From Tetraselmis striata (lineage: Eukaryota > Chlorophyta > Chlorodendrophyceae > Chlorodendrales > Chlorodendraceae), in assembly GCA_006384855.1 (NCBI GenBank), contig VCJN01002494.1:1-64000 (forward strand): 64,000 nucleotides of DNA, given 5' to 3'. The position numbers were made by a program, and so were the translations under genes. Every line of letters begins with the position of its first letter. Position 1 is the first letter of the stretch. Shown piece after piece: positions 5,063-49,500 of the stretch. The notes under the pieces are model-generated. The model made no database searches. It was not told where the DNA came from and was given only the letters and a program-made list of their open reading frames with translations.

Positions 5063-5064
5063 AT

Positions 5065-5097
5065 AGAGTTTTTCCACAATAACGCTTAAGTACTAGC
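5065..5097 (+). repeat. Left terminal inverted repeat of the transposon
   Basis: 33 bp, exactly the reverse complement of 10979-11011. It starts AGAGTTTTTCCAC directly after the AT dinucleotide taken as the target duplication and ends in GTACTAGC. Confidence 0.93.
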
Positions 5098-5115
5098 GTC
5101 GCCCGGTGGGCCCCA

Positions 5116-5131
5116 GATTATTGGGTCGCAG
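5116..5131 (+). promoter_or_regulatory. Left subterminal inverted repeat, possible transposase binding site
   Basis: The 16 bases GATTATTGGGTCGCAG recur as an exact inverted copy at 10935-10950 near the other end. The segments between these blocks and the TIRs are only loosely similar, so the blocks were selectively conserved. Binding by the THAP-like or SWIM domain is inference. Confidence 0.6.
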
Positions 5132-5353
5132 CATCGCACCGAGTAGTCGCGACATTGTTAGCGACTAATCGCTACCCGCCGCCGCCTCGCTACCCGTCGA
5201 GCCTTTTGACCAGCGTTAGAATTTCTGCAGCACGCAGACTGATCTCGCACCCGCATCGCGCCGACCCTGCAGCAGGAGGGCACCATGGTAGGCGGCCCGT
5301 CGAAGCGGGGGCCGCGGTAATGCGCATGCGGGCACCCTAAGTGTGGAAAGCCG

Positions 5354-7276
5354 GTGGTGAGCGGCGGCCATCGGCTGTCGACATTGGACCCAGAACATTT
5401 GAAAGTCGGCGTCAACAAGCTGCTCCCGTGCCCGTGCCACGCCGACGACCGTGCACTAGTGCTCAGCAGCCCTTTCGAGTACCGAGTCCACACTTCGCAC
5501 TTCCTAGACACAGACAAGGTGTCGTCGCAAGGCGGTGGGAAGAAGCTGAAGCCCTTCGCTGCGCTGATCCCGTTTGGCACCCTTTTCAAAAACGAGCCCC
5601 CACTGAGAGGAGTGCAGCCCGCTGGTGCAGCTTCCAGAGGGTCCACCTCAGGGACAGCAAACAATGAAAACCTGAATCCTGTATCGAGCGCAGCCGCAAG
5701 CGCCACCACCATGCGCCGACCTGCTTATGAAGTGCCAAGACATGCCCTGGCCCCCCTGAATGGTCTAGGCGCGATTGCTCGACAGCCACAGCGTAGGGCA
5801 GCACCAAACTCCATTACAGCGATCAGACGCCGGCGGGTAGAATCTTACCGTGCTTCTGCCGCTGCGCAGGCATCACCGCGTAATAGGCAGCGCAACTCTG
5901 CTCCTGTACCTGCAGCCGTAACGGGCAGCCCAGCCCGCAGCCCAGCCCCATGGCTTCCGCCACGTTTCCCTGCACCGACGGCTGATATGTCTGGTCACTT
6001 CGCGGCGCTGCTGAACCGCACTGAGCGTTACCTGGAGACGGAGAGGGCAAACAACCGCAACAAGTCAGCGCTCATAGACCAATTGAAGGCCAAGATTGCA
6101 GAACTCGAAGCACAGGTCGCCGCAGAGCGTGCAGCTAAGGAGGCCGCAGAGCGACATGCGGCAGAGATGGAGGCGCTGCTAGAGCAATCCAGGGCAGAGA
6201 CAGAACTGGTTCAACAGACTCTCACTAAGCTGCAGGAGCGCACCAACCTAAAGCTGACGTGGGAGAACGTGATACAGAAAGACAGCCCCTGGTTTGATGT
6301 TATCCCCGATCTGACAGGCATGCACAATGCCGAGGTGTTGCATGCACTTTATAATTGGCTAAACTGGAACGGTCAAGCGCATCGCCTTCGTTACTGGAAC
6401 GGCAAAGCGACCATCAAGCGCATGCAGGCTGTGATCAATGGCAGTGCGAAGAGGAAGAGTGTGGGCAGACATCTCAAGGCTCTTACCCCAGAGGACGCCA
6501 TGCTGGCTACCCTTGTGAAGCTGCGCACTGGTCTGTCCACCAAGGTCATTAGTTCGTGGATGGGCGTACCTCTCGGGACTCTTTCCAGGATCTTTATGAC
6601 ATGGATCTCCTTCATGGACAGATTCTTCCGGTCCGAGTTCCCCATCCCCACAGTAGAGCAGATGCAGGGCCCTGAGATGGAGGAATGGAAGAATGCATAC
6701 GGTACAAATCGCATCAGGTTCATTCTGGATTGCACCGAGCTCAGGGTGCAACAGCCTTGCAACAGGAAGGCAAGCAGGACTCTTTTCAGCTACTACAAGC
6801 ATTACCATACTGCCAAGTTGTTGGCCGGCATCCTTCCACTCGGCGCGTATTACGGTACTTCAGAGGCCTACCCTGGCCGCATCGACGATCTGGAGATTTT
6901 CGAGCAGGCGCCCTTCAAGGACATCCTGCAGCGTGGAGATTGCATACCCACAGACAAGGGCTTTGACAAGCTCGCCGAGACCCTGCAGGGCATGGGCTGT
7001 CAAATGGTGGCTCCAGTGCGCAGGATGCAAGGCCGCAAGACCTACACATCAGATGAGCGAGCAGGGAACAAGGGCCAAAGCAACCTACGCATCCACGTGG
7101 AGCGACACTTCAGTCGCATGCAGGGCTGGGGATTTTTCAGCCAAAAGAAGATTCCACTGTTCTACACCGACATAATCGCAAAGATCTTCAATGTTGTGGG
7201 GCATCTGTGCAACCTTTACAAGCCCCTGAGGAACAAGGATGATGCTGGCGCACTGGCCGAGTCCATGCATGCCTAG
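5354..7276 (+). CDS. ISL2EU/Harbinger-type DDE transposase with THAP-like N-terminus
   Basis: A 640-codon frame without stops. Residues about 35-75 resemble the C-terminal half of a THAP zinc finger (VHTSHFLDTDKV, then KKLKPFAALIPFGTLF). A basic, proline/alanine-rich linker follows, then a coiled coil at about 225-295 rich in E-x-x-A-A-E heptads. The DDE_Tnp_4-like catalytic part covers about 300-635. Acidic triad candidates are D459 (FILDCTEL), D534 (CIPTDKGFD, equivalent to the usual ADRGF) and E583 (RIHVERHFSRM). 'LTPEDAMLATLVKLRTGLS' and 'SYYKHYHTAKLLAGI' match the family pattern. The enzyme would cut and join element ends at AT dinucleotides in the nucleus. The CxxC half of the THAP domain is not visible, so an upstream exon between 5098 and 5353 may be missing from this start. 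It converges with the nuclease gene. Confidence 0.9.
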   Translation: MVSGGHRLSTLDPEHLKVGVNKLLPCPCHADDRALVLSSPFEYRVHTSHFLDTDKVSSQGGGKKLKPFAALIPFGTLFKNEPPLRGVQPAGAASRGSTSGTANNENLNPVSSAAASATTMRRPAYEVPRHALAPLNGLGAIARQPQRRAAPNSITAIRRRRVESYRASAAAQASPRNRQRNSAPVPAAVTGSPARSPAPWLPPRFPAPTADMSGHFAALLNRTERYLETERANNRNKSALIDQLKAKIAELEAQVAAERAAKEAAERHAAEMEALLEQSRAETELVQQTLTKLQERTNLKLTWENVIQKDSPWFDVIPDLTGMHNAEVLHALYNWLNWNGQAHRLRYWNGKATIKRMQAVINGSAKRKSVGRHLKALTPEDAMLATLVKLRTGLSTKVISSWMGVPLGTLSRIFMTWISFMDRFFRSEFPIPTVEQMQGPEMEEWKNAYGTNRIRFILDCTELRVQQPCNRKASRTLFSYYKHYHTAKLLAGILPLGAYYGTSEAYPGRIDDLEIFEQAPFKDILQRGDCIPTDKGFDKLAETLQGMGCQMVAPVRRMQGRKTYTSDERAGNKGQSNLRIHVERHFSRMQGWGFFSQKKIPLFYTDIIAKIFNVVGHLCNLYKPLRNKDDAGALAESMHA

Positions 7277-7285
7277 TAGTCATGC

Positions 7286-9198
7286 CTAGTGTGTCTCAAC
7301 ATCACTACCTTCGCACCCGTCGCCTGACGCTGCAGCACTGCTCCCAGCCGAGCTGCAATCGGACTCGTCAGTGCTAGTGATGGAGTCGTCTGTAACCCAT
7401 TCCGAGTCGCTTCTACAACCCAAGAATTCTCTGATGTCATATGGCTCAACCGGCATGTTGGCGCCATCTTTTCCCTTGTATCCAGCTTCGGCTGCACATA
7501 TCCCCCCATTCGCATGATTTGAAGCACGCCACAGCCCCCACCTGGCAGACACTCTGAGGGGGTCGTTCCTGCTTTCGTCAACTGTCTCTAGATCAACATC
7601 CGCCATAGCCTCGAACTTGTTCCTCCAGCCGCTGGTTTCTGCAATCTGAGGCAGGGAGCGCAACAGCAACACATTGATATCGACCCGTGAGCAACCCACA
7701 ATTTTTTTTGGTAGCATTCACGCAATCACAGTTGCTGAATCAACATAATGCCTCACCTGCAGAATGCGGCGCCTCTCAGGCTGCCCAGAAGACTTCTTGC
7801 CACGCTTGCTCTTCTTGTGCTTCACACGCATAAAAGGGATGCTGGCCAGCGGGGTTCTGACATCGTAGATTTCCCCTCTGCCCGGATCAGCCCACGCGCA
7901 TAGCACAGAGGTGCTGGGCTGTTCCGTGGCTCCCACGATATGCTGGGGGCGAGGTAGCAGGTGTACTGCAAATGCGCACATGAGAATGTGCACACATTCT
8001 GTGGTGTGTCCCAGCGGGCAGTCGCAGCCACCGCCAACAACTTTGGTGGCAAAGGGGTGGCCGCCTGGGAACTTGGCCACCAAGCATTCCAGCCAGCATT
8101 TGTGCGCGGCGCCCATGCGCTGCGAGGCAGGCGCCATGAATCGAAAGTACACAGAGCGTTGCGAACCGCCATGCGTTGTGCGCGGCGTCGTTGCTTCCGT
8201 GTTGTCATGATAAGCGAACCCCACAAGCCGCGTCATCTCCATGACGCGGGAGAAGGCGTCGTCCAGGATGGTGCGCGTATTCTCTGCCACCTCAACGATG
8301 TATCTAGGGAATAAGCACATCGTTCACACTTTCAATAATAGGAGTTTTCATGTGCGACATGTAAGAAATCTCAGATTCACACACAAAGTGGAACGGCGGT
8401 ACCTCTCCCAATGACTGTATATCACCTGCCTCTCGAGAAAGGGAGCAACTGCGGCAATGTCATGCCTGCCAGTGATCCACTCAGATGTGGCGGGCAACGT
8501 TGTGAAATCCCCCTGCTCAGAAGGGAAGTGCCAGCAATGCCCAGACACCCGCTCCAGGAGATGCTTGTGGAGGCTGCGTCCGGACGGGTCACGCAGCATT
8601 ATGCTCTCTCCCCTCTGTTTCATCTCTGCCTCTAGGGCCATCCTGGTCTTCACAACATTGACAATCTCATCCCGAGTACTGCCGCTTTGCATACTCATTC
8701 CTAGCCGTGTAGACAGCCACTTCCTCATGGCCTGTTTCAAGAGCACATAAACATTGATTAAGACATATATGTAATCATGTCCCTCGTATTCAATTCTAAC
8801 AGAATTGGGCGCAGCATGTGCTAGGGCCTTACCTGCACTGTGGGTCGGTTAGAACGATCCCAGGGCCAGGAGGGCAAGCTCGCTCCATCAATCATCTCCT
8901 CTGTGAGGTGAGCCGGCATATGCATAGAAGCTGCTACACTAACATCAGGAAGCTCGCTCAACTCGCCTGTGGGTGTCATCAGACCGAGCGCCCTACGCTC
9001 AGCATCGTCCGCGGAGATTGCGCTTCCGAGGAACGGCCAGCGAATGCACGCGTCACTGCAGTCCGCTCCACTCTTTGTCTCAACCCGCATAGTATTGGGA
9101 TTATACGCAAGTGCGTGCTCAAACACTGTAAGCGCATCCCTCGCTTTTTGGGCCCATTTCTCAACATCCAGCCCTTCCGCCACAAACAAAGCAAACAT
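7286..9198 (-). CDS. SWIM zinc-finger part (and nuclease tail) of the transposon's accessory protein
   Basis: Four exons with matching phases: 9198-8833 (donor CAG|GTAAGG), 8731-8403 (acceptor AACAG, donor AG|GTACCG), 8303-7757 (acceptor CCTAG, donor CAG|GTGAGG) and 7645-7286, giving about 533 residues. Introns are 99-111 bp. The third exon contains GCDCPLGHTTECVHILMC, a CxC-x7-CxH SWIM finger, a putative DNA- or protein-binding module known from MULE-type transposases and ZSWIM proteins. A lysine-rich KHKKSKRGKK stretch, possibly a nuclear signal, follows. The first exon has ALTVFEHALAYNP, like the segment after the catalytic core in Exo1/XPG nucleases, so this is probably the 3' part of one gene that starts at 10138. 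The joining intron near 9350-9150 could not be fixed: a stop at 9224 lies only 26 bp from the ATG at 9198, too close for separate genes. The C-terminus is acidic and serine-rich. Confidence 0.75.
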
Positions 9199-9223
9199 AT
9201 TTCAGGGATGCCACACCCGGTCG

Positions 9224-10138
9224 CTAAGCATGCACCACAGGCATGGACAGCTTTGCGGCAACTTGCCTGGCGACGATTGCTTCATCTGACCAGCGATGTA
9301 TGTGGTCAGCCAGAAAGCCGAGGTGGGCACGTAGGTCCGAAAAAGCCGGCGTACCATGGCTGCACAGCAGAATCTTGCAAGCAGCCAGCGCCCTCCCAGA
9401 CCCAATGCCCCGGACTTTCGTATTGTAATCACATCCAACCGCCAATGTGTAGGCAGTCACGAACCCCAGCCCGCAGCGAGCCACCATCGTCAAAAAGTCC
9501 GTTTTCCACTTCTCTTCATTGGGCCAAGCTTGGCTGTTCTCAGCCACATAGTAGTCCCACATGGCAGCCCGCCCGCTGCGCCAAGAGACTCTGAAGAAGA
9601 CCCGCTCAATCCCATGGACGATGAAGTCAGCATCCACCGTTGCGACGGCCCAGACGACGCCTGCCTTGGCGAGCAAAGCCAGCTGCGAGTCTGCCTCGTA
9701 TGGCGCAATGAAGTATTTGATCCCGTGCTGCCGCAGAAGCCGCACCACGGCGGCTACTGCTAACCAGCCCAATGAGATGGCGGCCTTTATCGCAGCAGTC
9801 GAAGGTGTTACATCGTCACCGTGCATTACCTTGGCGAGTGCCATCGCGCGACGCCTCTGCCGCTCCTGGTCAGTGCAACGCTTGGCCGGGGTTGGTGCAC
9901 CATCGAAGACAAACACCAGCTCCACTCCCTGGCCGAGGGCGTACTGCGCCTGCTGTACAAACTCACGCGCCAAGGGCTCATAGTTCTTGTGGAAGACAAT
10001 ATCTTCAGCCCAGTGGTAGGCAAATTGATGAAGCCACACGTGCCCATCCACGCCGATGCACTTGCCCTCAGCTGCACTGTACAGGTTCGTGGTTCGTAGC
10101 AGGGGGCCAAGATGTTGAAGCAGCTTGGGCACCCCCAT
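9224..10138 (-). CDS. XPG/FEN1-like structure-specific nuclease domain encoded by the transposon
   Basis: From the ATG at 10138 (MGVPKLLQHLGP, the N-terminal glycine motif of the FEN1/XPG/Exo1 family) the frame runs 304 residues to a stop at 9224. Expected metal-binding acids are all present: D31 (IGVDGHVWLH), D79 (VFVFDGAPTPAKR), E148 and D150 (APYEADSQLALL), D169 and D171 (VATVDADFIVHG) and D237 (VGCDYNTKVRGIGSG, the helix-two-turn-helix). The start is supported by an apparent acceptor (CCCTTCACAG) nine bases upstream of the ATG and a donor (CAG|GTAACG) further 5', that is an intron in the leader. Such enzymes cut 5' flaps or single-strand/double-strand junctions, a plausible role in processing transposition intermediates. 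The last residues may be intronic, because the family's next segment appears at 9198 onward. Most likely it is the N-terminal half of an XPG-SWIM fusion. Confidence 0.88.
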   Translation of the reverse strand: MGVPKLLQHLGPLLRTTNLYSAAEGKCIGVDGHVWLHQFAYHWAEDIVFHKNYEPLAREFVQQAQYALGQGVELVFVFDGAPTPAKRCTDQERQRRRAMALAKVMHGDDVTPSTAAIKAAISLGWLAVAAVVRLLRQHGIKYFIAPYEADSQLALLAKAGVVWAVATVDADFIVHGIERVFFRVSWRSGRAAMWDYYVAENSQAWPNEEKWKTDFLTMVARCGLGFVTAYTLAVGCDYNTKVRGIGSGRALAACKILLCSHGTPAFSDLRAHLGFLADHIHRWSDEAIVARQVAAKLSMPVVHA

Positions 10139-10686
10139 CTCCCATTCACCTGTGAAGGGCACAGAATTTCGCACGTAAGGGCGACCGAGTGCGTTGATTT
10201 GCGTTACCTGGACCACGGTCGTTAAGGATGCGACCGGCGCTTACCTTACATGTGACCCAGCAGCACGAAACTGTGCGCCTCGATCCGATGCCTCGTTTGC
10301 GCCGCCTACCAGCCTAAGCGGGCAGCGCTGAGTCGTCTTGCACTCTTGCAGTCCCGCTCCTCTGCGACAGCACCGGCAGGGCAAGGGTAAGTGTGTGCCG
10401 GATTCCGGGGCGTTGACCGGACCGGATCGCGGACGTTAAAACTTCTGACTAAACTTACTACCTGGTAGGTGTTGAGGTTGCAGAAGGCCTCTGCCCAACG
10501 CCCATGCGTCGCCCGAACGTCGCAAGGCGCGCTTCCGTCCACCCGCACTCGCCTCGCCTGCCACGGCACACGCACGGTACGGATAATAGAGAATCTCTTG
10601 GGCGTTGACCCGGCGAGATCGCGGCAGATACAGGGAGAACCGGCACTTACCGGGCAACTCAGGCAGCGGATTGAGGACGGAGCGGC
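10139..10686 (-). promoter_or_regulatory. Probable 5' leader of the XPG-SWIM gene with introns
   Basis: On the minus strand a consensus donor (CCCG|GTAAGTGCC) lies near 10650, another (CACCTACCAG|GTAGTAAG) near 10467, and a third (GTCCAG|GTAACG) near 10208, followed by the acceptor just before the ATG at 10138. This suggests a spliced 5' untranslated leader or short upstream coding exons. The exact arrangement cannot be settled without transcripts. Confidence 0.4.
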
Positions 10687-10935
10687 TCAGTGACCGCCCG
10701 CTTGAGCATCGCTGGCGCGCCTCAGGCCCAGCGCCTCGCTCACGTCGCCCACGTACCTGACGTCACGAAACCCGCAGTCCAAGGGTTGGGGTTTGCCCTT
10801 GGAGTGCTTTATGAGGCAGGATCGTGGGAGATGTCGGCACAACAGGCACTTGCGGATGGGCGAGGCGCGGCGAGTTCTGTGCGCCGTGTGTCTCGCCGCG
10901 CAGCTTTTGAACTGCTTGCCGCCTCCTCGCAACAC
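10687..10935 (-). CDS. Small Cys-containing open frame inside the transposon, uncertain
   Basis: A minus-strand frame of 82 codons contains RKCLLCRHLPRSCLIKH and a lysine/proline segment, then stops just before the 5' leader of the nuclease gene. The CxxC plus third cysteine hints at a small zinc-binding peptide, and the composition is more protein-like than the antisense frames. No family is recognised. It might be a third element protein, an upstream exon of the nuclease gene, or chance. It lies beside the subterminal inverted repeat. Confidence 0.3.
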   Translation of the reverse strand: MLRGGGKQFKSCAARHTAHRTRRASPIRKCLLCRHLPRSCLIKHSKGKPQPLDCGFRDVRYVGDVSEALGLRRASDAQAGGH

Positions 10936-10950
10936 TGCGACCCAATAATC
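10935..10950 (-). promoter_or_regulatory. Right subterminal inverted repeat
   Basis: Exact inverted copy of the 16-bp block at 5116-5131. It sits 61 bp from the right end against 51 bp on the left. Candidate binding site for element proteins. Confidence 0.6.
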
Positions 10951-10978
10951 CAGCCTCCACTGGCCGGGGTGCCAAAAA

Positions 10979-11011
10979 GCTAGTACTTAAGCGTTATTGT
11001 GGAAAAACTCT
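10979..11011 (-). repeat. Right terminal inverted repeat of the transposon
   Basis: Exact reverse complement of 5065-5097 and followed by AT (11012-11013), matching the AT before the left repeat. Confidence 0.93.
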
Positions 11012-11135
11012 ATACCCGTTCCCCGCCCAAGCCTGCTAGATAAAACAATAAAACCGGAGTTTATAATCGTTGGATGGGGGGATCATTGGTAACTTGCTTG
11101 GGGATTAGTGGTAGCGCGTTCTTGGGTGAGAGGGC

Positions 11136-11226
11136 GGGGGGGGGGGGGGGGGGGGGGGGTTGGACGGCGGAAGGGTAGACCTACAATGCGGGTACCTGGT
11201 GAGAAGCCCCCCCCCCCCCCCCCCCC
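11136..11226. repeat. Long G tract followed by long C tract, potential hairpin
   Basis: A run of more than 20 G ends near 11159, and a run of about 17 C follows at about 11210-11226, separated by roughly 50 bp. The two could pair as a long G:C hairpin, or the G run could form a quadruplex. The rest of 11012-11360 shows no gene. Confidence 0.7.
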
Positions 11227-43899: not shown

Positions 43900-46480
43900 G
43901 GCGGCAGGTGTGGCGTCGACGTATGCCAGGTGCCGGTGCCCTCCGAGGAGGCGGCAACGGGCAGCGACGACCGCTATGTCACCGTGAGCTTCGAGGTCGG
44001 CCCCTCGTCGCGGGGCGTTGGCGGCAGCGTGGACGCTTCGTTGGATGAGTGCTGGTTAGGAACGCATGCCGCGGGTGGGTTGCCGCATGAAGTGGACGAG
44101 GTGGAGGCGGCCAAAGGCAAGTGGGCGTCGCCTTCGTGGCCGCGGGCGACCTACGCCCGGCGCTCGCCCTCTACGGGCACACCCTGGAGCTGGCCAGCAA
44201 CGGTCTGGGACACCTCTCTGCTGCCACAAGCGCCGTACTTTACTGCAACCGAAGCAAGGTGCCCGCCGGCCACGATCGCAGCGCGGGAGGCTCCTTTGGC
44301 TGGTTATTTTTGGACTATTGTATGAATTCAAGCTTTTGTTACTAGCTGTAGTATATATATTTTATATAGTAATATGTGTATTATTCTTCAATTTCGCTTA
44401 TTATTGATCATTATTATAATCATGATAATGATCATCCTAGCTTATTCTAGTACATCCTACTACCGCCATGCCGTGCAAGATTCGTGCCGTGCAGCCCTGG
44501 CTGGTGCGCCTTCCCGATCTCTCCCTTGTCGTCCTCCTCCTCCAACCGCTCTTCTCCGCTTCTCCCTCTGCATCTGAGCAGCCCCTGCCTCCCCTGCGGT
44601 GCCCACCGCCGTGTGAATGCCGGCCCGGGCAGCTGGCGCGCCGCGTCTAGCGACGTACACATGGGCGTCATGCTGGGCAAGAGCCACGCCAAGGCGCTCT
44701 ACCGCTGGGGGTTGGCGTGCCGGGCCACGTGCTGATGACCGCCCGGATCGGCGCGGACGCGGTGCGGGTTATAGAGTTTAGATCCTTACATCCTCAACCT
44801 AACACCCTTACCACCCTAACCGTGGGGAAGGACGACTGCGATGTGCACGCCGGCCACCAGCATGGGGAACGCGGGCCCTATAGAGTTTAGATCCTTACAT
44901 CCTCAACCTAACACCCTTACCACCCTAACCGTGGGGAAGGACGACTGCGATGTGCACGCCGGCCACCAGCATGGGGAACGCGGTGGGCCCGAGCGGGAGC
45001 AGCTTCGTCGAGGGGACCGAGTTGATTGTGTCTGCTCTCCCCCCCCCCCCCCCCCCTCCCCGGAGTACCAGTACGACTTCCGGGCCCTCATGGCCTCCGT
45101 CGGTTGTCAACTTCATGTTCTTTGCCAGGGGTCTTACTGGCATATCCCACCGAGTGCGGGACATACATGTCGAGGCCTACAACATTACTCAGCAGGTGTA
45201 CCGAGAGAAGGGGCGTGCCGGACGGCGCTGGCAGAGCCAATGCTCCGCGGAGCTGTCGCTGGCGGAGCGTTCCATGCTGAGGCAGCGCCGGAATGGGCTT
45301 TGTGGTGGAACTGGCCGAGGGCGCGGCGCCCCCCCCCCCCCCCCCCCCGGTGTCGATGGATGAGCTGCAGGCCGGCAAGTGCACCGGCGGGCCGGGGCTT
45401 GCGGCGCGGCTGGAGAAGTACGAGGAGGGACTGGCGCGTATCGCGCGGGAGGGGCTGCAGCCGAGCCTGACCTTCGGGGAGACGAGGAAGCTGCACCTCA
45501 TGGTGACCCTTGGGGAAGCGCTGCCTCATCTAGGGGCCACGGGCCTGCCCCCTGCTGCAGCACCTCCGCATCGAGAGCATGGCGTGCTACCTGGTGGACT
45601 CCCGGCCCTCGATCCGGGCCGACCCCCAGCGGCGGGACAAGGACAGAGACAAGTTGGAACGGTTCACCGGCGCCGTCCCGGGCGAGCAGTGCCCACCCAC
45701 TGTCCGGCTCCTGCTGGAGCCCCTGCTCCCCCTGCTGCGCGATGCCTGAAGCCTTGCCCGGACCAACGTGCGGAATGCCAGGGGGGGGGGGGGGGGGGGG
45801 GCAGCTGCGGGTGCTCCGGCCCGCCCGAGTGCTACCCTCAGCAGCCCAAACAATGCAGGGGTTGCCGTGGGGCTTGGTACTGCGGCCCGCTGCGCCAGCA
45901 AGTTCAGTAGCAGAAGCTTGGCCACCGCGGTGAGGGCGACCAGTAGCGGGTGGGACGAGGCAGGGGGAGGCGAGACATGGGGACACCCGGGAATGGCGTT
46001 GACGAGTGGCGTCGACACCCATGCGCCGAGCGCCGCAAACATCGGCGTTGCTCCGAAACTAGCAGGATACATTTTAATTATTTATCCCACGCGCAGTGGG
46101 CCCCTACCGAGGCATCCCGATGCTGCCTGGGCCGACGTTACCGCAGTCGTCGCCACGAAACCGGTAGCAGACATGCCGCGTAGTCATGGCGCTGTTGTAC
46201 GCTGCCGTGGAAAGGGTATCGTGTGTACGGCCGTCGATGCAAGTACGTGGGTACACCGTAGTAATCGAGTGATATGATAGCAGGTCGATGATTCATCGTA
46301 ATCACCAGTGTCGCGTCGGCAGCCGGACAAGGCCGAGCACCTGTACCTGGGCGCCATCAAGGCATCAACAAGCCGCGACATTCCGATGCAGGTTATCTTG
46401 GGCGAATACCGCAAGCTTCGCGGCCGGCGTGGCCTCGCGACATGTCTGCCTGGCGTTGCATGTCCGGTTTGGGGGGCGCG
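43900..46480 (+). CDS. TPR protein with MYND-like cysteine cluster, structure poorly resolved
   Basis: Recognisable pieces in order: VPVPSEEAATGSDDRYVTV and EVDEVEAAKGK (to 44120); a TPR-like segment GVAFVAAGDLRPALALYG + LELASN + AVLYCNRSK ending at a GTGCCC donor; a second TPR-like piece SHAKALYRWGLACRA (about 44655-44725); an exon with DELQAGKCTGGPGLAARL and FGETRKLHLMVTLGEA (45357-45530); HLRIESMACYLVDSRPSI...LLRDA-stop (45560-45749); and a MYND-like QCRGCRGAWYCG (about 45855-45895). The TPR-like segment needs a one-base shift or an unseen intron at 44119-44121, and the MYND-like cluster runs into TAG. The gene may therefore be decayed or carry unrecognised introns; two neighbouring genes are also possible. 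TPR plus MYND would suggest a chaperone-adaptor or SMYD-type protein. Confidence 0.4.
44374..44460 (+). repeat. AT-rich, palindrome-rich intron segment
   Basis: Dense TTATTATTGATCATTATTATAATCATGATAATGATCA-like self-complementary sequence, abruptly different from the GC-rich flanks; probably within an intron. The full palindrome lies at about 44398-44435. Confidence 0.6.
44770..44987 (+). repeat. 109-bp tandem duplication
   Basis: The segment beginning 'tatagagtttagatcctt' (44770) is repeated at 44879 with an offset of 109 bp. The two copies appear identical through 'caccagcatggggaacgcgg'. It includes a telomere-like 'ccttaccaccctaacc' and a downstream coding-like part, so one copy may duplicate an intron/exon boundary of the TPR-like gene. 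Confidence 0.95.
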
Positions 46481-46523: not shown

Positions 46524-49500
46524 TCACGCCAGTGTGGCAGGATCCTTGCCGGAGAGTAGGCGGGCAACCTCTTCGTGTCCCATGGCGCGGGCGTAGGCAA
46601 AGGCAGTGCGGCCCGTCGCGTCCACCACGTCGCGCCGTGTGCTCGGGTGCCGTAGCAAGAGGTCGACAACCGATGAGTGGCCGCGTACGGCGGCGAAGTG
46701 GAGCGCCGAGAAGGAGCGCCCGTCTGTCGAGGGGCCGCCGCTGCACACAGTGTTGACCTCGCACCCCTCGGCGGCCAGCAGCGCTGCGACTGTCTCGTTC
46801 CGACCGGCTCCTGCGGCAAGCATGAGCGCCGTCACCCCCGCCCCCTTTGACTTCACGTTGACATCGGCGCCGGCGGCGAGAAGCGCCTCCACGCAGGCGG
46901 TTCGCCCTCGCTGGGCGGCCGACAGCAGCAGCGCCTCGCCACCTTCCTCTTCGGCGCCGCGGACCGGCGCTCCGGCACTGAGCAGGGTCTCGACCGCGCG
47001 GCTAGCACCGCTGTCCACCGCGAGACGCAGCGCGCGAATGAGGTCGGCTCGGGAGCGGTGCTCCGGGCGCGTCCCGGCTAGCAGCGCCTTCAAGCAGTCC
47101 GGGTGCCCCGCCATCGCGGCCTGGCAAAGCGGCGTTAGGCCTCTCGCGTCAGGTGCGCCGGCGTCGACGTCAGGAGCGGTGAGCAGCAGTGAGACGATGG
47201 ACGCATGGCCGCCGTCGATGGCCTCCATCAGCGCGGTCCGCTGGAGCCCATTCCGTTCACGGGCCTGCCAACACCAAACGGCATCGACGGCGCCAGGGGA
47301 AGCTGCTGTCAGAGTTTTGCAACCGGGCTTAAGCTCACACACCCTCAACCATGATGCGTCAGGGATGATGACTTGGAATGTTTGCCTCGCTACGCTGCTC
47401 ATATTCATCGCAGCACTATGTCTATATTAGAGTACGTGTTCGGCCATGTACTTCAATGTGCGTGGTACCCGCGGCATGTTGTTCCGCCAATAACTCGCAG
47501 GTAGGCGACCGAAACCTAAGGATGACGCATGCACAGCGCCGGCCAAGCAGGCTTTGATGAACACCTTCCTGAGGGGTAGGCACACGAGCATCACACTGCT
47601 TTCCTGCCTCGAAATAGTAGCCGCTGCATTAACATCATCCAGTCACCACTACACACCGCAACTATACCAATCCCCCGCCGGCCGCCGTGAACCATCGTGG
47701 ACATGGGGGCGTGCCCAGAAGGATGAGAGGTGGGACAATTCGTGTCCCGGCAAGCTTAACCCCCCCCCCCCCCCTATCGTAACATTCTCGTCCTGCCATT
47801 TACCACTAACATGCCTCCTTTCATATCCCAGCAAAGTAGGCAACCTCCAGCCACGATCCTCTCGCTTATGACGCCGCCAACACGATATTATCAAAGGTAG
47901 AGACTGAGGGACCACAACATTACCTAGGACTGGGACCAATGCCAGCCGTAGACACTGAAGCAGGCATGTAAAGGGCAGGGTCAGGGGTGAGGACCGTGCA
48001 CAATTTTCATACCATCCAAGGCTGCCATGTGCTATACTTTTAACATTATCATGAACATCACCATCATTGTCTGGCTTCTGCTGCATTGCACACACAGATG
48101 CATCTCAATCATGTTGTGGTCCCTCAGTCTCTAGTAGTGATTATGTCATAAAATTATCATCACCATAGCAATATAATTACAATACAACATAATTACAATA
48201 ATATCACTATCATTCTTATGATAACGATAATGCACATCATGTCAGAGGTCAAATGCAAACGGCTGTGTCGCAAACCCATAGCGAATGCTTCTACAGCAGG
48301 CGGCGCATGCAGCACCGATTTCCATATCATATTACGGCGGGATGGCAAGTGTGAATCGACGCGTCGGCATCCATACAAAGCACACTCACATTGCCAACCA
48401 TGGCAGCGGCGCGGGCGGTGGCTCGGTGGCGCACCACGTTCACGTCGACCCCCTCGCACGCCAGCAGCGCCGCCACACACTGCGTCCGGCCCTTTGCGGC
48501 AGCGAGGATGAGCGGCGTGGCGCCGTCCGGGCGGGTGCGCGCGTTGGCGTCGGTGCCGGGCGCGGCCAGGAGCGCCGCCACCACGCCCGCGTGGCCCCGG
48601 CCGGCGGCCTCGTGGAGCGCTGTGGCGGAGCTGTGCGCGGAGGGCAGGTTGGGGTTGATGCGCCGGTGCGCCAGCAGGAGCTGCGCCGCCTCCAGCTGGC
48701 CGGCGCGCGCCGCGGCGTGCAGCGCGCTGGTGCCGTCGGGGATGGTGGTCTCGTTTACGTTGGTGCCCGGGGCGGCCAGGATCTCCCGCACCTGGCCAAG
48801 CCGTGGGGAGGGGAGGGGCGCTGCATGGTCAGACCAACATGCAGCTCGGGCTGATTGGGGCTGACTCAGTAGAGGCTGATTGCAACCCCAAACTTCGCTG
48901 GACTAAAGGATATCGTAAAGACTGGAATTCAGTCTGAATTCACCCGAATTCTGCCCGGACAAGTTCTGCCATCTTTGTCATGGCACCCATTGGACAACAT
49001 GAATTGAGATTCCATACTTTCACTTACCCAGGAGTGGCTCCCAGCTGAGAAGCGAACTCAGGGGGTCAGGGGAATTGTGTGGCCGGAATTCAGCCTCATC
49101 CATGCACGTGCATGCTCTGAAGCTGAGGGATGCCAGTGCCGCGTCAAAAGGCTAAAGTCGGTGCAGCGGTCTAATACCTCTAATACAGAACATCTGTCGG
49201 CCAGGGAGGAAACTTGTAAACGTAGACTGCGACAGAGGATAAGGGACTGGGGGGCATGAAACGATGGAACCAGGGAGAGCACTGAAAGTAAGCCTGGCAA
49301 ATGTAAAAATTCCATGGCGGAAACTCCAGCGGCACGCTAGCCGGCTTGCGAACGTGGGCCGCTCGGCATGACGCACCTTGTCGGCCTGCCCCGCCAGCGC
49401 CGCCTCCACCAGCGGCGGTCGCCCGTTGTCCGGCCGGCAGCGGTTGATGGCGGTGCTCGACAGCCTCGGCTTGCCCCCCCCTGCGCCGCCGGGCCCGGCG

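Follow-up and report, generated by a model that had tools for sequence, protein, structure and literature searches.

An ISL2EU-like transposase paired with an Exo1-like XPG-SWIM nuclease gene in a DNA transposon of the green alga Tetraselmis striata

Introduction

A stretch of 64,000 nucleotides from the green alga Tetraselmis striata (contig VCJN01002494.1; the whole stretch is called the window here) contains an element of 5947 bp that is bounded by terminal inverted repeats (TIRs) and carries two convergent genes, one for a DDE transposase and one for an XPG-type nuclease with a SWIM-like region (XPG-SWIM). In our reading the element is a cut-and-paste DNA transposon with two genes, present here as a damaged copy; it belongs to the PHIS superfamily, on the ISL2EU side, and the nuclease serves as its second transposition protein. 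The probability that we assign to this reading is about 0.7. The nuclease may have replaced the YqaJ nuclease that was described for the ISL2EU elements of animals, and it may have a role in transposition.

Recurrence of the gene pair

The genome searched comprises 224 Mb in 2903 contigs; the window corresponds to contig C2011 and its element defines family 1. Each of the ten HTH_Tnp_4 matches in this genome has an XPG match at most about 3 kb away, and the two are convergent. For a broader count, 150 of 187 candidate DDE_Tnp_4 matches were scored with a distance limit of 8 kb. It was found that 22 of the 150 have an XPG and/or a SWIM match nearby (14 with XPG and SWIM, five with XPG only, three with SWIM only) and that the two genes are arranged tail-to-tail in all 22; the other 128 have neither nearby. 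Copies that belong to the same family cannot be counted as independent cases, but at least three families are represented among the pairs. The preliminary description of the window had proposed looking for the same nuclease gene in related elements, and these pairs supply it. This recurrence gives the pair the appearance of a stable working partnership and not of an accident.

Family 2 (C2226, C1116 and others) has a TIR of 122 bp, which starts with AGAG and the arms of which are 99% identical; it is complete on C2226, and the left end of C1116 is interrupted in the assembly. The transposase of family 3 (C1590, C1508 and C1293) is 58-62% identical to that of family 2 in the best stretch. Copies of two families contain both genes inside one TIR pair. 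Downstream of seven further XPG loci a convergent transposase was found in six, with only a weak fragment at the remaining locus, C1619.

Comparison of the nuclease exon between families 1 and 2 gave 48% amino acid identity, with a proportion of synonymous differences (pS) of 0.77 and of nonsynonymous differences (pN) of 0.38. Between family 2 and the three family 3 copies, two of which have one stop, the identity amounts to 72-77%, with pS 0.76-0.77 and pN 0.15-0.18. Synonymous change is thus saturated and protein change is not, which indicates that the nuclease was under constraint while the families diverged.

The transposase

The transposase of the window element is matched in Pfam by DDE_Tnp_4 (E = 1.1e-25) and by the helix-turn-helix (HTH) domain HTH_Tnp_4 (E = 7.5e-9), and both domains occur in each of the 22 members of the alignment, one of which is the window's own. 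The residues D470, D545 and E594 are taken by us to form the catalytic triad. The preliminary description had reported an open DDE transposase of 640 amino acids: the DDE domain and the triad were confirmed, the intact frame was not, as the frame is preceded by an in-frame stop that is missing from the sister copies. This stop follows 11 codons after the likely start, and the first methionine of the long frame is residue 131. The sister copy L010 encodes an open transposase of 663 amino acids; in L009 the second catalytic aspartate is exchanged for another residue. The database protein P0009 (jgi/Tetstr1, 429 amino acids) has all of its 10-residue words in the transposase frame of C1259, which is the contig of L009.

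At the N-terminus the order C-x4-C ... V-H-T-S-H-F aligns with C ... V-C-S-K-H-F of THAP domains, with a histidine at the third ligand, and database annotation gives THAP in the relatives P0022, P0025 and P0026. Profile searches of the PDB returned no THAP chain and no meaningful match for the N-terminus, and no meaningful match for the whole transposase.

An unrooted tree was built from 27 transposases. Four of them, which have DDE_Tnp_4 and come from the same genome, were chosen from matches without XPG nearby, and we take them to be Harbinger-like. The 23 transposases of the HTH_Tnp_4 kind are split from these four with a support of 100/99. Within the 23, an alga-like clade of 15 sequences forms one group (99/95) and the remaining eight, among them the THAP-bearing ones, form a second (96/92). 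The earlier assignment to an ISL2EU-type transposase is upheld by HTH_Tnp_4 together with DDE_Tnp_4, by the AT duplication and by the grouping with THAP-bearing ISL2EU-like transposases. The tree that had been proposed for this assignment is realized in part, in that it sets the clade of the window apart from the four other DDE_Tnp_4 transposases of the genome, among 27 sequences of which none is a named ISL2EU, Harbinger or Spy reference. Approximately 128 other DDE_Tnp_4 matches in the genome, of the PHIS/Harbinger type, have no XPG nearby, and several of them are repeated open frames of 458-568 amino acids.

The XPG-SWIM gene

The product of exon 1 is matched by XPG_N and XPG_I in Pfam, and the motifs GVDGHVWLH, VFDG, APYEAD, TVDADF and GCDY are all present and aligned with Exo1; which of their letters are catalytic is our assumption. 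Among solved structures in the PDB, Exo1 is nearest by sequence (2e-22), and flap endonucleases follow at 1.7e-11 or weaker. For the predicted structure of the relative P0002 the top 15 Foldseek matches are without exception human Exo1; the model has a mean pLDDT of 58.5, with the nuclease blocks mostly at 70-88 and a weak part at about residues 81-120. The gene had been described as a convergent, spliced gene for a FEN1/XPG-like nuclease. Its full set of XPG motifs and its arrangement are borne out, and the flap endonuclease gives way to the nearer Exo1.

The motif CxC-x7-CxH sits between predicted strands and a helix; it occurs also in P0030 and P0031, and P0006 lacks that stretch. The SWIM finger that was proposed from this motif holds as far as the motif itself, which is backed by the predicted fold and by sub-threshold matches in relatives; with E values up to 1 allowed, the window's own exon with this motif did not match Pfam. 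At the same limit none of the five exon frames that were scanned matched a Myb/SANT domain.

Compared with L009 and L010, exon 1 of the window copy has an excess of 4 bp near its end. With this excess and the splice site supported by the sister copies, the product of the window copy ends at residue 286, past the nuclease part. A first gene model of the window copy (812 amino acids, all junctions GT-AG) was rejected, as its first splice pair lacks support from the sister copies; it is no sign of an intact gene. In L010 the five-exon gene is open (806 amino acids, GT-AG junctions in phase) and its first junction is homologous to one that is spliced in P0001 (...NRRG-DFDADAW...), the product of an MMETSP transcript. 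For the nuclease gene of L009 one splice pattern was not found. P0001 belongs to family 2, as 633 of 677 of its 20-residue words match the locus on C2226; judged by position, the unmatched words lie across the splice junction or beyond the end of this locus. A second Tetstr1 protein, P0007, contains part of the nuclease gene (78% identity over 11% of the query).

Copies of family 1

The preliminary description had called for other genomic copies with TIRs and AT duplications, and such copies are present: a terminal query of 136 bp has 33 matches in the genome, and AT stands at 26 of the 29 ends listed. Twenty places were fetched. Two of them hold near full-length copies, L009 on C1259 and L010 on C2683, which are 98.8% and 99.0% identical to the window element over 5947 bp. 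Eight (L011-L014, L016, L017, L019 and L020) hold derivatives of about 4 kb that have lost the catalytic part of the transposase and part of the nuclease gene; other DNA, repetitive-looking in L014, stands in for the catalytic part. These eight are an amplified non-autonomous lineage. C418 is a deletion copy of 3.4 kb, and nine places hold pieces or one end. The open genes of L010, the identity of the long copies and the spliced transcript of a related family together suggest recent activity.

Relatives in other data

A protein search with the first 812-residue gene model as query, in which the best 7993 candidates were scored, returned at least eight proteins, and P0002, P0003 and P0005 among them have both the nuclease and the SWIM-like motif. 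A search with the C-terminal half of P0002 returned five matches among the best 7992 candidates, the query included, all of the same kind, and thereby added P0030 and P0031; no other nuclease partner of the SWIM-like part was seen among these matches. P0030 and P0031 have no XPG match and are taken as single exons called as genes. The longest contigs of P0002 and of the transposase P0017 are equal in length (5736), as are those of P0030 and of the transposase P0014 (10722), which suggests that metagenomes hold the same pairing of transposase and XPG-SWIM. Two scans of viral contigs with a few short patterns returned no relative.

Another of the proteins from the first search, the distant metagenomic P0008 (1038 amino acids; 26% identity over 29% of the query), combines XPG with CxC..CxH and may point to a different lineage of elements that also carries XPG-SWIM proteins.

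Element ends and target site

The ends were found as first described: the TIRs are identical over all 33 bp, or over 35 bp when the flanking AT is included, and AT flanks the element on both sides. A 23-base end pattern, with up to three mismatches allowed, occurs twice in the window, and the number expected from 100 shuffles is 0. Among the ends listed, forward-reading ones are preceded by AT in 13 of 15 cases and by GT in two; reverse-reading ones are followed by AT in 13 of 14 cases and by GT in one. The usual context is TAT-...-ATA, with the hyphens at the borders of the element. The base before AT at forward ends is T in 12 of 15 cases, T stands before GT in two more, and the window copy has C; the base after AT at reverse ends is A in 13 of 14 cases, and the other end has A after GT. 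The target consensus is T-AT-A (the duplicated bases between hyphens), which is TATA-like.

Empty sites were searched for with the joined flanks of ten copies against the genome, and the best 40 of 4128 candidates were considered. For six of the ten insertions, that of the window included, a paralogous uninterrupted site was found (seven loci fetched), and at each of the seven loci there is a single AT in place of the two that flank the inserted element. The window copy differs from its empty site in four of 180 columns; the other empty sites differ in 6 to 15 columns, and that of L019, which is shorter, in 35, most of them in an unaligned end. No empty site was found for L010, L012, L014 and L016 among these best 40 candidates. 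Insertion adds the element and an AT. Two other duplications were considered and rejected. A TA duplication with element ends GAG..CTC is ruled out by the empty sites, because these would have to be 2 bp longer, and a 4-bp duplication TATA is ruled out by the C before the left AT of the window copy and by the empty sites.

Comparison with known transposons

ISL2EU elements were reported to have an AT duplication, a second open reading frame (ORF) encoding YqaJ, a TIR usually starting with GG and the target A-AT-T, and the survey lists 25 families from 14 species, all of them animals (Han et al., 2015; PMC4482050). A YqaJ second ORF of ISL2EU is also given in PMC9179366. The function of the additional ORFs in PHIS elements was stated to be unknown (PMC4482050). 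The window element resembles ISL2EU in its DDE transposase with HTH, the AT duplication, the presence of two genes and a nuclease as second product. It differs in the nuclease, which is of the XPG/Exo1 type with a SWIM-like region and not YqaJ, in an N-terminus that is only THAP-like, in TIRs that start with AGAG (families 1 and 2) instead of GG, in the target T-AT-A instead of A-AT-T, and in its host, a green alga of the Chlorodendrophyceae instead of an animal.

With PIF/Harbinger the element has the DDE_Tnp_4 catalytic domain and the two genes in common; PIF/Harbinger has a 3-bp TWA duplication and a Myb/SANT second protein (PMC4482050), whereas the window element has 2-bp AT and XPG-SWIM. 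Spy resembles it in the PHIS transposase and in insertion at short AT-rich palindromes, but is described as having one gene and no target duplication and as inserting within AAATTT (PMC4482050), in contrast to the two genes and the TATA-like target here. In Dada, a different superfamily, the transposases of some members were described as including a DnaQ-type 3'-5' exonuclease domain (PMC3706591). Human Exo1, the nearest solved structure by sequence and by predicted fold, is a host repair enzyme, and the solved construct matches the nuclease part only. Academ is a DNA transposon with an XPG-type nuclease; this nuclease type is in common with the window element and the transposase superfamily is different.

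In the literature no ISL2EU- or Harbinger-type transposase paired with an XPG/SWIM nuclease was found, in a search with poor coverage of subscription papers and with Repbase and Dfam outside its scope. Among the titles listed none dealt with Academ and XPG, and none with YqaJ and SWIM in transposons. The earlier suggestion of an undescribed lineage agrees with the outcome of this search.

Alternative explanations

Several observations weigh against a two-gene transposon of the ISL2EU side with the nuclease as second transposition protein. Within 8 kb, 35 of 54 contigs with XPG matches have no DDE_Tnp_4 match, many of these being decayed copies, and the same holds for eight of 25 contigs with SWIM matches; these unpaired contigs include decayed derivatives and C1445, where the transposase was found by a separate search, and some others may be host repair genes or fragments. 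Between the recent family 2 copies C2226 and C1116 the nuclease exon shows no constraint (pS 0.015, pN 0.011, few changes), a result to be expected if changes are few and copies decay once they have inserted. The likeness of the N-terminus to THAP is weak, with a Pfam THAP match in three of 22 members and an hhalign probability of 20%, and the Pfam SWIM match is sub-threshold in four of five relatives scanned (best E = 0.0088) and absent in P0008. The window copy is damaged in both genes, both of which are open in L010, and is probably not autonomous. The transposase tree has long branches (the alga-like clade is separated from the others by 1.3-2.2 changes per column) and no named reference. 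Finally, since AT is its own reverse complement, the AT duplication is formally equivalent to an element with T...A ends and no duplication.

The strongest competitor, which we regard as somewhat less than an even chance, is that the element belongs to a separate PHIS group parallel to ISL2EU that gained its nuclease independently, so that no YqaJ was replaced. The long branch of the alga-like clade is what such a group would show, as are the AGAG ends, the T-AT-A target and the algal host; HTH_Tnp_4, the AT duplication and a nuclease-type second ORF are shared with ISL2EU and speak against it. Two YqaJ matches were found in the genome (C2605:161037-161417 and C613:237838-238221), neither on a contig with a paired transposase; they are perhaps host nucleases of organelles, as known for plants.

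It is rather unlikely that XPG-SWIM is a gene of the element with a role other than strand processing, e.g., countering host silencing or repair, or aiding spread. SWIM regions can bind DNA or proteins. Accessory genes of the TET/JBP kind in fungal DNA transposons, for which a link to DNA methylation is speculated, are a published case (PMC12730594), the main text of which does not name XPG, YqaJ or SWIM. Against such a role, the complete XPG motif set is kept and constrained, and other ISL2EU elements also have a nuclease as second ORF (PMC4482050).

It is very improbable that one copy captured an EXO1/FEN1-like passenger gene of the host, which would make the pairing meaningless. XPG nucleases serve in DNA repair in hosts of all kinds, and transposons are known to capture genes, but XPG and/or SWIM stand tail-to-tail in every nearby pair, the families have constrained nuclease exons that are only 48% alike, metagenomic relatives exist, and no full-length related element without the nuclease gene was seen, although no systematic search for one was made. 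An unrelated neighbour or a nested element inside the TIRs is the least credible, having no point in its favour; against it stand the fixed orientation and, in two families, copies whose two genes are enclosed by a single TIR pair. Both capture and nesting were rejected, since the pair recurs and always in the same orientation.

Possible mechanism and significance

If the nuclease is the second transposition protein of an ISL2EU-like element, the transposase would bind the TIRs via its THAP-like and HTH parts, excise the element and join it at TATA-like sites, as expected from the protein families. XPG-SWIM might be drawn to the DNA of the element by its SWIM-like part and might trim or resect 5' ends, a step that we consider moderately likely and that would act on the donor break more probably than on the excised element. 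Resection in the 5'-to-3' direction would make it easier for the donor site to be refilled by homology-directed repair, by which copies would be gained. In animal ISL2EU elements the YqaJ nuclease, which is of the lambda-exonuclease type, may do the same job. The XPG and YqaJ folds are both known for 5'-to-3' exonuclease activity, and this common activity would make it understandable that one could take the place of the other.

More tentatively, ISL2EU-type transposons may need an obligate 5'-to-3' nuclease, a slot that would have been filled at least twice by unrelated folds, i.e., by YqaJ in animals and by the Exo1-like XPG-SWIM in green algae. If true, 5' resection at the donor break or trimming of end flaps would supply the function that has long been missing for the second ORF in this group. 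A different nuclease fold with the same kind of transposase, in fixed orientation and under constraint, would suggest that the conserved requirement is the nuclease activity as such, and the XPG-SWIM and YqaJ lineages would offer a matched pair for experiments. ISL2EU-like elements would also be extended from animals to a green alga and, judging from the metagenomic relatives, to other hosts.

Coordinates and neighbouring sequences

Table 1. Positions in the window of the parts of the family 1 element and of its target duplication.
Feature	Position	Strand	Remark
Target duplication AT, left copy	5063..5064	.	Single AT at the paralogous empty site on C586
Left TIR, 33 bp, starts with AGAG	5065..5097	+	35 nt, 100% complementary, including AT
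Imperfect subterminal inverted repeat (78%)	5100..5131	+	Pairs with 10935-10966
Likely transposase start, ATG at 5285, then in-frame stop at 5318-5320	5285..5320	+	L009 and L010 open here
DDE transposase frame, 651 codons: THAP-like N-terminus, helical middle, HTH_Tnp_4, DDE_Tnp_4	5321..7276	+	
HTH_Tnp_4 (PF13613)	6479..6619	+	Pfam match
DDE_Tnp_4 (PF13359)	6725..7213	+	D470 (6728), D545 (6953) and E594 (7100) present, invariant
XPG-SWIM exon 5, acidic C-terminus, stop	7286..7645	-	Gene model and sister copies
XPG-SWIM exon 4, bears the SWIM-like motif	7757..8303	-	Gene model and sister copies
CxC-x7-CxH motif (SWIM-like)	7988..8026	-	Kept in six of seven aligned relatives
XPG-SWIM exon 3	8403..8731	-	GT-AG, in phase
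XPG-SWIM exon 2	8833..9173	-	Junction homologous to the spliced one in P0001 (family 2)
XPG-SWIM exon 1: Exo1-like nuclease (XPG_N and XPG_I)	9291..10138	-	Four extra bases near the 3' end compared with both sisters
Imperfect subterminal inverted repeat	10935..10966	-	Pairs with 5100..5131
Right TIR, 33 bp	10979..11011	-	Arm identity over 33 bp
Target duplication AT, right copy	11012..11013	.	Flank sequence and empty-site comparison

To the right of the element a G run and a C run, each of at least 20 bases, face each other at 11136-11226, possibly a place prone to problems of assembly or replication. Elsewhere in the window a tandem duplication with a unit of 109 bp (2.0 copies, 100% matches) lies at 44770-44983, and an ORF of 300 amino acids with ankyrin repeats (46527-47426, minus strand; Ank_2, E = 1.2e-35) is apparently a host gene or encodes a repeat protein.

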